From assembly GCF_000423645.1 (NCBI RefSeq), contig NZ_AUIJ01000002.1, positions 1 to 64,000 of the forward strand: DNA of 64,000 bases, read 5' to 3'. The notes under the pieces are model-generated. The model was given only the letters and a program-made list of their open reading frames with translations, was not told the DNA's origin and did not search any database. The stretch comes from Sediminimonas qiaohouensis DSM 21189 (GTDB lineage: Bacteria > Pseudomonadota > Alphaproteobacteria > Rhodobacterales > Rhodobacteraceae). Every line of letters begins with the position of its first letter. Position 1 is the stretch's first letter. Positions 20,903-24,492 of this stretch are shown here, piece after piece. A program made the position numbers and the translations under genes.

Positions 20903-23245
20903 TCATTGCAATTGGTGAGAAACCGTTTCCGTCAGTTGGGACAATGAGAACGGTTTGGGCAGAAACACGGAGTTCAGGATATGGGCCCGCACGTTTCCAA
21001 ATGCTTCCTCCGCGTATCCGGACACGAATATCACCCGTACGTTGGGCCGACTCTTGAGCGCCTCGACCACCCAGCTGGGACCATCCATGCCCGGCATCAC
21101 GACATCGGTGACGAATACGTCAACCGCAAGATCGCTGTCTTGCAATGTCTCGAGCGCGCCCTCGGCGGATTCCGCTTCGAGGACAGTATAGCCACGTAGC
21201 CGCAACGCGCGCGCCGCGAAGGCCCGCACCGGCGCCTCGTCCTCGACCAGCAGGATAACCCCCTCTTCGGGTTCCTTGAGCATTTTCGCGCTCTGCGGTT
21301 CGGGTGCCTCGATCCGGTCGGCCGGGGATAGCTCGTGCAACGGAAAGATAAGTGAAAAGCTGCTGCCGCTGCCCGGCACGCTATCGGCAAAAATGTATCC
21401 GCCACTTTGCTTGATAATCCCATAGGCCGTCGACAGGCCAAGCCCTGTCCCCTCGCCGGTCCGCTTGGTGGTGAAGAACGGCTCGAACACCTTCGGTAGC
21501 TTTTCGGGATCAATTCCCACACCATCATCGGACGCCATGATGCGGACGTATTTCCCGGGCGGCACAATCGCGCGATCCCGTTCGAGCGGCGATTTCAGGG
21601 TGATGCAATCGGTCTCGATGCGTATTTCACCCCCCTCGGGCATCGCGTCGCGCGCGTTAACGACGAGGTTCATCATCACCTGCTCAAGCTGGCGCTTGTC
21701 TGCGCGGATCATCGGGTTCTCCGGATCATGCGTCAGGTTCAGGCGCACCCGCTCGCCGACCAATCGGTTGAGCAGATGGGTCAGGTCGGACAGCGTATTC
21801 CGCAAATCGAGCACTTCTGGGCATAGCGTCTGCTTGCGCGAAAACGCCAGTAGCTGCCCGACCAAGGACGCCGCGCGGTTGGCATTCTGGTTGATCTGGA
21901 CCAGGTCGGCATAGGCCGGATCACCCTGGTCATGGCGCAGCAGCAACAGATCGCAATGACCTGAAATCGCCGTCAGCAAGTTGTTGAAATCATGCGCAAC
22001 CCCGCCGGCCAATTCCCCTATTGCTTGCATCTTCTGGCTTTGGACAAATTGCGCCTCAAGCGTCTTGAGCTTCGTCGCGTCATTGATAACGGCAATCAGC
22101 GAGGGCGCGCCGTCCGTGTCGACACGCGTCAGTGTCACCTGAACGAACACCTCGCGGTCCGTACGGCTGAGCCGCAGAAATTCGGAATTGCGCGCGGGCC
22201 GTCCGTCGATCGCTTCGGCCAGCCAATCGGCTACGGAGCGCCCCAACCCCTCCATCAGGTTCGGAAGGCTCTGGCCTTCGCAATTTCCCTTTCCAAAAAG
22301 ATCCCGGGCAAGTCGATTCGACAAGATAATAGACGCGTCGGCATCAAGACGCAGAAGCGGCACTGGCAGGTCCTCGAAAAACCGCCAACCGCCGGCAACT
22401 TCGGGCGATTTGGCCGGCACCAGCACGATCTCGCGGCGTCCTCCGGTGGCGGGTCCGTCCGAGACCAGGCAGGCGCGCTGCCCCTCCACCGTGTTAATCA
22501 TGTTGATCTCGCCCATGCGGGGCGCGGCGCCGCCAAACAGCGCCTCGATCGATTTGACTCGGTGACCGATAAAGACGCGAGCCGCCTCGTTCATGAACAG
22601 GATCGTGCCCCCGCGGCCCGCCGTGATCATCGGCAACCGCTGCGCCAACCCAAAGCGCCCGGGCGCTGGCCTGTCGGCGATATCCTCGAACCGCCACAGG
22701 AACGCGCCATGGTTCAAACGGTGCACAGCGATGCGCAGATGCCCCTGGCGCATCACCGCATCCTCGCGCGCTGCGCCGTTGGTCTGCGCGCGCAATTGCA
22801 GCCGGTGCAACACCGCCGAGGGATTGGCGAAGACGTCCGGCAAGAGGCTGGCGACAGTAGCGTTTTCGGATACGCCGAATCGCGCCCGCGCGGAGGCGTT
22901 GGCGTGGCAAATGCCACCGTCTGCATCGGCGAGGACGCTGGGGGCGGCGTCATGCGCGACAAACTCCGTAACTGCGCGCACCGACTGGCGGTTGCGGCGG
23001 CGGGCCAGGCGGCCAACGACCCACGCCATTGCCATCACCGCCAACAGTGCCCCCGCGACCGAAAATAGCGCAGATGCAAACAATGCATCGCGCACCAGCA
23101 CCGCAGCCACCGCCGCGGACGCCCCCAGGCCAAGCATCGCGCCTCCGTGGCGCAGCACCCGTTTGGATACGCGCGTCATCGGCCCATCTGAGATCGCCGC
23201 AAATGGCACTGCTTCCCCTCCCGCACTTGGTTGCAGATTCGGCAT
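20903..23245 (-). CDS. cckA: Hybrid sensor histidine kinase/phosphatase CckA
   Basis: Top of the CckA-ChpT-CtrA phosphorelay, which controls cell cycle, motility and gene-transfer-agent genes in Rhodobacterales. It has 780 residues: two N-terminal membrane helices (about 37-52 and 55-79), PAS-like sensor segments (about 95-190 and 285-395), a dimerisation domain with phospho-His H418 in [17 protein letters not shown], and an ATPase domain ([31 protein letters not shown]). A C-terminal receiver domain follows, with D714 in [14 protein letters not shown] and the CckA-typical tail [20 protein letters not shown]. An exact TTAA-N7-TTAA CtrA-type site lies 26-40 bases upstream of the start codon. 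A shorter start at 23179 (MTRVSKRV) is possible. Confidence 0.95.
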
Positions 23246-23270
23246 CGCCCATCATTGAGCGCACAAAGCC

Positions 23271-23285
23271 TTAACCGGTTCTTAA
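23271..23285. promoter_or_regulatory. Candidate CtrA box upstream of cckA
   Basis: TTAA-CCGGTTC-TTAA, an exact match to the CtrA consensus TTAA-N7-TTAA, in the 74-base gap between cckA and the RNA methyltransferase gene. TTAA is rare in sequence of this GC content, so a double match at exact spacing is notable. Confidence 0.65.
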
Positions 23286-23319
23286 TTCAGATCATTTTGC
23301 AGCTTTGGGTTGCGCGCCA

Positions 23320-24492
23320 TCAGTCTCGACGGCGCAATAGCTGCGCGACAAAAAAGCCGTCGCCGGATGGCCCCGGGTCCCAATGCCGCCGGGCCTGCGT
23401 GGTCCAGGTTTCATGACGCGCCAGGAACGCATCGACCCGCGCGTCGTTCTCGGACCCGAGGATCGAGCAGGTCGCGTAGGCAAGCGTGCCGTCCTGCGCG
23501 ACAAGCGTGGCGGCCTGATCAAGGATCTGATCCTGGAGAGCCTGCAATCGCGCCAATGCGTCCGGGTCCAGCCGCCACTTGGCATCAGGCGCGCGGCGCC
23601 ACGCGCCGCTGCCAGAGCAGGGGGCGTCACACAGCACCAGATCGAAGGGCGCCAGGGCCCGCGCGTCGTGCAACGTGACCTGCCGAACCGTTGCCCCCGC
23701 CCGCAAGGCGCGCTGCGGCAGGTCGCGCATACGGCCCGGGTCGGCGTCATGCGCGAACAGCTCGATATCCGCGCGCGCGGCCATGGCCAGTGCCTTGCCG
23801 CCGCCACCGGCGCAAAAATCAAGCACTTTCATGCCACTTACAAGGCGAAGCTCATCCACAATGGATTGACTCGCGCCGTCCTGAAGCTCTACCAATCCGT
23901 TGGTATATGCGCGCGCGGCCCGAATACGTCGCCCCCCCGCATTCACCTTGAGCGCAGTCGGGGAAATGCTATCGGGAGCGGCGTCGACCCCGTCTTCGGC
24001 CAGCATGTCGATGGCATCGGCGCGCGCCCCCTTGCGCAGGTTCACGCGAAGCATCACCGGCGCCCGTTTACGCAGTTGCAAGGCCAGATCAGCCGCCCTT
24101 TCATCGCCCTCGGCCTCGCGCAGCAGGGTCCAGAGCCAATCAGGCAGGTCCATCGCCTCGGCGCCTTCCGGAGAGCGGCCCGCGCGCGCCTCCTCATCGC
24201 TGAGCGGTGCGGGCGCGTGCCCCTGCCCGGTGAAATACGCGCCCGGCTCTTCGCCGCGCTCGCGCAGCAGGCCGATCATAACGGCGCGGCCCGTCATTCC
24301 CCCACCCCGCGCGGCGGCGGATCGCAAGCGGCGCAGGGCATCAAACACATGATCGCGCACCGCGGCCCTGTCTCCAGAGCCCGCATACCGCGCGCTGCGC
24401 GCCCAGCCTGTGAGCGCCTGTTCGGCCGCGGCACCGGCAAGCACCTTGTCCAGCACCTCGGACGCGGCGGCAATTCGGGCGGCGGGCGTCAT
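23320..24492 (-). CDS. RsmB/Nop2/Sun-family rRNA m5C methyltransferase
   Basis: A 390-residue SAM-dependent RNA cytosine-C5 methyltransferase. The N-terminal region (about 1-150) resembles the NusB-like/RNA-binding part. The Rossmann domain has motif I MKVLDFCAGGGGKALAMAA, motif IV LVLCDAPCSGSGAWRR (release Cys) and motif VI TLAYATCSILGSENDARV (catalytic Cys). A conserved LVELQDGASQ lies before motif I. It ends with the family's DGFFVAQLLRR strand. rRNA is the probable target, but the exact site cannot be read from sequence. It lies between guaB and cckA on the same strand. Confidence 0.9.
   Translation of the reverse strand: MTPAARIAAASEVLDKVLAGAAAEQALTGWARSARYAGSGDRAAVRDHVFDALRRLRSAAARGGGMTGRAVMIGLLRERGEEPGAYFTGQGHAPAPLSDEEARAGRSPEGAEAMDLPDWLWTLLREAEGDERAADLALQLRKRAPVMLRVNLRKGARADAIDMLAEDGVDAAPDSISPTALKVNAGGRRIRAARAYTNGLVELQDGASQSIVDELRLVSGMKVLDFCAGGGGKALAMAARADIELFAHDADPGRMRDLPQRALRAGATVRQVTLHDARALAPFDLVLCDAPCSGSGAWRRAPDAKWRLDPDALARLQALQDQILDQAATLVAQDGTLAYATCSILGSENDARVDAFLARHETWTTQARRHWDPGPSGDGFFVAQLLRRRD

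Follow-up and report, generated by a model that had tools for sequence, protein, structure and literature searches.

A predicted CtrA full site in the cckA promoter of Sediminimonas qiaohouensis and its conservation among the Rhodobacteraceae

Described CtrA-cckA systems and the site in the window

The control of the kinase gene cckA by CtrA, the response regulator of the same phosphorelay, has been predicted in Rhodobacterales since 2010 (PMC2877005, PMC3692519, PMC4046655, PMC6473078), with mixed expression data, the reporter and transcriptome results being in conflict as far as the accessible text of these sources goes. In the work of Brilli (2010; PMC2877005), CtrA was predicted to control cckA and divL in 'cluster B' Rhodobacterales, and the target gene, the regulator, the feedback idea and the bacterial order are all the same as here. 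However, according to the accessible part of that work, it used a position weight matrix and representative genomes, whereas the present analysis relies on the exact site, spacing controls, the distance to the start codon and counts across the family, and finds in addition a GANTC site in the same cckA promoter (46 of 75 promoters). In Dinoroseobacter shibae, too, a CtrA site has been predicted before cckA and described as part of a feedback loop, and the ctrA mutant shows lower cckA in the stationary phase and no effect in the exponential phase (PMC4046655, PMC6473078, PMC7232146); ctrA works in those studies, while ctrA of the genome considered here is split by an insertion element. In Ruegeria sp. 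KLH11, a full CtrA site is located 62 bp upstream of the predicted CckA start (Zan 2013, PMC3692519), which, counted from the far end of the box, equals the usual spacing of the family (48 bases past the box in the Ruegeria locus L084). The plasmid-borne CtrA left cckA-lacZ of KLH11 unchanged in a strain keeping the wild-type cckA, and the activity of the plasmid PcckA-lacZ, 48 Miller units, dropped to 1.6 when quorum sensing was lost by mutation (PMC3692519). As cited in the same paper, the R. capsulatus ctrA mutant has an unchanged cckA transcript and a lower level of CckA protein, and the D. shibae literature cites an action of LexA on the cckA promoter in R. capsulatus. The ctrA promoters P1/P2 of Caulobacter present another gene of the CtrA system with both GANTC and CtrA input, as here (PMC8116508, PMC3667746), but in our case the gene is the kinase cckA, and the box and GANTC, a candidate site for methylation and GcrA, share one compact promoter.

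The window, that is, the whole stretch of 64,000 nucleotides analysed from S. qiaohouensis DSM 21189, contains a new instance of this known prediction; the comparative support is stronger here, two points are corrected and one element is added. The hybrid histidine kinase gene cckA (20903-23209, minus strand), recognised by NCBIfam and sequence match, lies in an open frame extending from ATG 23245 down to 20903; the best NCBIfam matches of the kinase are two CckA models, both under the curated cut-offs, and the N-terminal half of CckA has one match in the genome. Upstream and in the same direction follows rsmB, encoding the 16S rRNA methyltransferase (23320-24492, minus strand), and the gap between rsmB and the cckA open frame is 74 bases. 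The CtrA-type full site, identified by sequence match and conservation and listed without a strand, occupies 23271-23285 in this gap (TTAACCGGTTCTTAA on the plus strand, TTAAGAACCGGTTAA in the cckA sense), with its two TTAA tetramers exactly 7 bases apart, as a full site requires. This confirms the exact TTAA-N7-TTAA claimed before cckA in the earlier note made on this DNA.

The exact pattern matches the window once, at these coordinates, while in 100 dinucleotide shuffles of the window the mean was 0.02 and one match was reached in 2 of the 100. The genome (3,554,982 bases) holds six exact sites against 23 for the pattern read backwards. The tetramer itself was said to be scarce at this GC content, and it is: TTAA occurs 26 times in the window (64.2% GC), against about 66 calculated from the base composition. 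The chance of an exact site in one 74-base gap, calculated from the genome-wide density, is about 1.2e-4, a figure which the earlier note could not give for its view that such a pair is unlikely by chance, and the conservation settles the question of chance. The CtrA full site is given as TTAA(N7)TTAA (PMC6180460), and the extended form TTAA-N7-TTAAC is the ChIP-derived CtrA motif in Hyphomonas neptunium. In the window, the second TTAA is followed by G when read in the cckA sense and by T on the opposite strand, and the box is therefore not classed as the extended form; the final C is treated as a preference for the full site.

Conservation of the site and the start of CckA

The species genomes were scanned with the CckA of the window, and the best 80 loci, none of them dropped, were taken as the named relatives, the closest being a Sediminimonas MAG. 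The exact site was found upstream of cckA in 74 of these 80 loci and was the only one in the locus in all of the 74 but two (L090 and L108). Every other spacing from 0 to 20 near the start was present in at most 3 of the 80 loci, and so was each of seven control tetramer pairs at N7; the rest of the 80 loci, 594 kb, contained just two further N7 sites. Among the six misses (L043, L055, L071, L080, L095, L115), the site with one mismatch is carried by L043, L071, L080 and L095, and none by L115. The locus L055 begins at a contig end, and another contig of what is probably the same genome, G182:C46, has the exact box followed by the opening bases of L055, so that this miss is probably a contig break. 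In the 75 promoters, composed of the window and the 74 relatives with the exact site (the TTAA columns being thus selected for), the 7-base spacers are pairwise 30% identical and 70 of them are distinct. It follows that the tetramers are held rather than the region, and that the likeness is not just due to recent shared descent.

A wider sample of about one genome per genus, 37 genomes including that of the window and two more of its genus, gave 33 family loci (L007-L036 and L127-L129), with G001, G016, G031 and G035 having no CckA-level match. After the exclusion of L031, L034 and L129, where the upstream part was cut or the frame broken, and of L128, whose orthology was uncertain, 29 loci were assessable, L021 and L035 being counted with an exact site that lies inside the stop-to-stop frame but ahead of the usable starts. 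The exact site is present in 25 of the 29, the window's own included, and all four misses carry a one-mismatch version. In other alphaproteobacterial families, no exact site was found in 16 of the 17 stretches obtained from 24 genomes (L144 and L145 reach least far upstream), and the one match, in L139, is inside an open frame of a stretch with 43% GC. A further 23 loci were selected because their CckA N-terminal match is weak or because a CtrA-level match is lacking; the exact site is present in 13 of them, the one-mismatch version in 6 and neither in 4. Judging from these counts, the site appears as a family trait fading in diverged lineages. A strict promoter pattern, matched by 15 of 295 family genomes, was too strict to be useful.

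The absence of conservation in relatives was named beforehand as grounds for refuting the site, and the site is kept. A chance occurrence of the box without function, for which the small but non-zero expectation of an exact match in the 74-base gap could speak, is refuted by the retention in 74/80 and 25/29 loci with a near-random spacer, and its probability can be regarded as negligible.

The position of the site relative to the gene depends on the start codon. The GTG at 23207-23209 (minus strand), 36 bases inside the frame that opens at ATG 23245, stands behind a likely ribosome-binding site, GGGAGGGG (23215-23222, minus strand), and is 61 bases past the box, which therefore lies 62-76 bases upstream of it. 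Translation from this GTG gives VPFAA against VSFAA in the locus L037 of the same genus, and a simple score of the ribosome site gives it little advantage over the ATG (5 against 4 of 6). Among the 74 named relatives with the site, an in-frame start was found 40-70 bases past the box end in 73, of which 60 are at 48-52, and 0-30 bases past the box in 38. The search covered 40-70 bases past the box, within which L109 gave no start, and the spread of the box-to-start distance, 2.9, is bounded by that range. The leader of the window is some 10 bases longer than usual in relatives and longer than that of KLH11. By the place relative to the box and the N-terminal residues common with relatives, CckA probably starts at GTG 23209 rather than at ATG 23245, which would fall about at the inferred start of transcription. 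Thus, the distance of 26-40 bases between box and CckA start put forward earlier holds for ATG 23245 and has to be replaced by 62-76 bases for the likely start.

The gene rsmB is on the same strand in 79 of the 80 named loci, the 80th (L055) being truncated by the contig end, and the synteny gives consequently no independent test of a link between the box and rsmB. However, in the 74 named loci with the site the rsmB stop lies anywhere from 12 to 283 bases before the box, while the box-to-start distance is 48-52 bases in 60 of 73, which indicates that the box goes with cckA. A role of the box tied to the rsmB end is less likely, since the rsmB distance varies widely and the cckA-start distance does not. 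With the site exact in most of the family loci examined and at a near-fixed place in the promoter, selection can be taken to maintain it.

Promoter geometry and a second candidate element

When the 75 promoters are aligned on the box, the column after the second TTAA contains C in 42, G in 29, T in 4 and A in none; TT is common at 4-5 bases beyond the second TTAA, the peaks of C (48) and A (57) are at the columns 26 and 30 from the box start (taken as 0), and a G-rich block precedes the start codon. The conserved columns 26-31 correspond in the window to a putative -10-like element, CTCAAT, at 23254-23259 (minus strand). If CTCAAT is assigned correctly, transcription would start near 23247 and the box would cover about -38 to -24. 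In the scanned stretch, no match to the sigma-70 consensus promoter and no terminator were found, and no Rfam family was reported in the gap, so a structured RNA or terminator there was set aside. An AACC-type element is mildly conserved about 15-26 bases upstream of the box in relatives, near 23300-23312 in the window.

The flgB2 promoter of R. sphaeroides requires CtrA elements at -35 and -27/-28, and in Caulobacter the activator CtrA sites are near -35 whereas the repressor half-sites overlap -10 (PMC6180460). The box near the inferred -35 is placed as the known CtrA-activating sites are, which makes activation the better reading; the best description of the box is a predicted CtrA full box in the activator position. 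We give a probability of about three in four to the reading that this CtrA full box is an activator element of the cckA promoter serving a feedback, left as an orphan in the sequenced isolate, the binding, the activation and the transcription start being deduced. Under it, phosphorylated CtrA would bind TTAA-N7-TTAA beside RNA polymerase and raise the cckA transcription, and CckA, through ChpT, would phosphorylate more CtrA or, in the phosphatase mode, dephosphorylate it; the level of the top kinase could thereby be tied to the bottom regulator. This feedback reading is favoured by the lower cckA of the stationary-phase D. shibae ctrA mutant and, as set out below, by the other boxes of the genome and the joint loss of CtrA and CckA. 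Against it stand the second TTAA without the C of the extended consensus, the absence of a sigma-70 consensus and the lack of effect in exponential-phase D. shibae.

A different role of CtrA, binding to the box and repressing or fine-tuning cckA while the main drive comes from another factor, such as quorum sensing, GcrA/CcrM or LexA, has to be weighed at this point. That cckA transcription did not respond to added CtrA in KLH11 nor, as cited, to the ctrA mutation in R. capsulatus agrees with such a role, as do the fall of PcckA-lacZ in the quorum-sensing mutant, whether it acts through CtrA or not, the cited action of LexA at the R. capsulatus promoter, and GANTC in 46 of 75 promoters. However, the box is near the inferred -35 and not over the -10, and cckA goes down, not up, in the stationary-phase ctrA mutant of D. 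shibae; we consider this role improbable, though the most serious competitor of activation by CtrA. Since the site is kept by selection, the assay conditions are the likelier cause of the negative reporter results.

The added element is GAATC, a GANTC (CcrM-type) site at 23236-23240, listed without a strand, between the -10-like element and the ribosome-binding site. GANTC occurs at +20 to +35 past the box in the window and in 45 of the 74 named relatives, 46 of 75 promoters in all, whereas 1000 shuffles of the letters of each promoter stretch gave 3.6 on average and never more than 10, a comparison in which the relatedness of the promoter sequences makes the shuffles overstate independence. 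It is the commonest gapped 5-mer of its kind in this interval, with the middle base variable; between box and start, 48 of the 75 promoters have it, where its density in the loci would predict about 7%, and the 40 bases before the box contain no copy in any of them. In an overlapping sample, GANTC is at most 50 bases from the box in 14 of 37 loci (13 of 24 in the genus sample and 1 of 13 in the diverged set). The 29 promoters of the 75 lacking it include most of the Leisingera, Phaeobacter, Epibacterium, Tritonibacter and MED193-like loci and also several Roseovarius and others; the Ruegeria locus L084 has GANTC in its cckA leader. Of the 46 promoters whose GANTC could be read with its flanks, 30 match the extended GcrA activation motif YGAKTCK (PMC7987155), which one in four of all flanks would satisfy; the window copy, CGAATCT around 23236-23240, does not match it.

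The genome has matches over the cut-off to GcrA (PF07750) and to RAMA (PF18755), the latter matching in Caulobacter only over 14 control genomes, and the RAMA match probably marks a CcrM-type methylase here. A GANTC in the promoter thus stands together with gcrA and a CcrM-type methylase match in the genome, as the sequence of a GcrA/CcrM target would predict, which suggests a joint control of cckA by CtrA and GcrA/CcrM. No report of a GANTC element in a Rhodobacterales cckA promoter was found in the accessible text of the literature searched. The GANTC element adds a second possible input, and it is conceivable, as a tentative proposal only, that many Rhodobacteraceae cckA promoters are two-input switches, with a CtrA box at -35 and a CcrM-methylated GANTC, often of the GcrA-activating form, just past the transcription start. 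If so, active CtrA and the recent passage of the replication fork over this locus would together set the level of the top kinase, contrary to the printed view, in the accessible text of PMC2877005 and PMC8116508, that in Rhodobacterales the phosphorelay regulon is isolated from CcrM and methylation has no major role; the sequenced isolate, with its interrupted ctrA, would then be a natural test of the promoter without CtrA.

Interrupted ctrA, the regulator in the family and other boxes

In the genome of the window, and outside the window, the CtrA model matches in two halves, the residues 1-125 near the end of the contig C9 and 122-224 near the start of C33 (C9:143971-144570 and C33:1-635). 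Between them lie the two ends of an element with terminal inverted repeats (21 of 25) and a target duplication of 3 bases; its coding parts match the HTH_Tnp_1 and rve domains, as in IS3-type elements, after which it may be named. The split gene would encode 163 residues without the DNA-binding half, whereas the genome G002 of the same genus has a full-length ctrA, to which the joined flanks are 88% identical over 238 residues. The left 225 bases of the element have five genome copies at 98% identity or more, that in ctrA included, plus shorter matches; of the five, those on C9 and C10 stop exactly where the contig does, and those on C8 and C40 lie within 100 bases of a contig end. Further copies of the element were noticed on C40, C10, C8 and C29, most of them at or near the contig ends.

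Since the target duplication is clean, the break in ctrA is probably recent, and the isolate is probably a natural ctrA mutant; a mixed culture or an assembly fault is possible. Both cckA and chpT are present in the genome, but the intact ctrA on which a working loop in the isolate depends was not found there, and the feedback loop is probably cut by the element. The box would then be probably an orphan, left intact because the ctrA loss is recent. It is evidence against the feedback reading that the genome's own ctrA is disrupted, yet the box and cckA are intact. The same intactness in an assembly without intact ctrA could favour a different regulator sharing the motif as the owner of the TTAA pair. 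However, TTAA-N7-TTAAC is the CtrA motif derived from ChIP in H. neptunium, the exact N7 spacing is what is kept, the nearest full-length CtrA paralogue (L119) is matched better by the PmrA/QseB models than by the CtrA model, and the break with its clean target duplication is probably recent, so that another regulator appears very unlikely. For control by CtrA, the proposal of the earlier note that the bottom regulator feeds back on the kinase gains from the conservation, the activator geometry and the published proposals, and loses from the null data of KLH11 and R. capsulatus and from the split ctrA of this isolate. The interrupted gene is also a reminder that finding a conserved box in a genome is no proof of a working regulator in that isolate.

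Across 295 family genomes, a CtrA-model match with an E-value of 1e-40 or better was found in 280 (266 over the cut-off) and a match to the CckA N-terminal half in 266. Of the 15 genomes without a CtrA match, 13 are also without the CckA N-terminal match (for five of them this is deduced from the list of matching genomes, in which they do not appear), and the remaining two, G192 and G259, are incomplete; judging from these matches, CtrA and CckA tend to be lost together. However, among the 29 genomes in which the CckA N-terminal half finds no match, the CtrA model still matches in 16 (10 strong and 6 at the paralogue level, 1e-41 to 1e-47), and by this measure the two genes are not always together. 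The CckA N-terminal query evolves fast, and some non-matching genomes may hold a diverged CckA. In the 10 family genomes with strong CtrA and no CckA N-terminal match, such as G080, G202 and G220, CckA may be diverged or lost. A natural test by the genomes with cckA but without ctrA was abandoned: in the near-complete G210 (locus L226), the CtrA matches are only at the paralogue level and the box is still exact, but cckA has an internal stop, so that its intact box tells nothing either way, and G192, G224, G238 and G259 are incomplete.

The Tad pilus, flagella, DivL and quorum sensing have been discussed as CtrA-linked in Rhodobacterales, and the other exact sites of the genome lie near a gene of an SLT transglycosylase, with an RcpC/CpaB pilus gene beyond it (tad-pilus region), before an MshEN-glycosyltransferase gene, before the UDP-glucose dehydrogenase gene (ugd) behind FlgN and rod-binding flagellar genes, in the narrow interval separating regB from a PAS-domain gene (L004:1501-1515; G000:C11:39433-39447), and upstream of a LuxR-type autoinducer-binding regulator (L006:1501-1515; G000:C12:78140-78154). 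The PAS-domain protein behind regB has no NCBIfam match and may be the short DivL of Rhodobacterales. The box of the LuxR-type regulator suggests, by its position, that CtrA acts on quorum sensing, a link already proposed in D. shibae.
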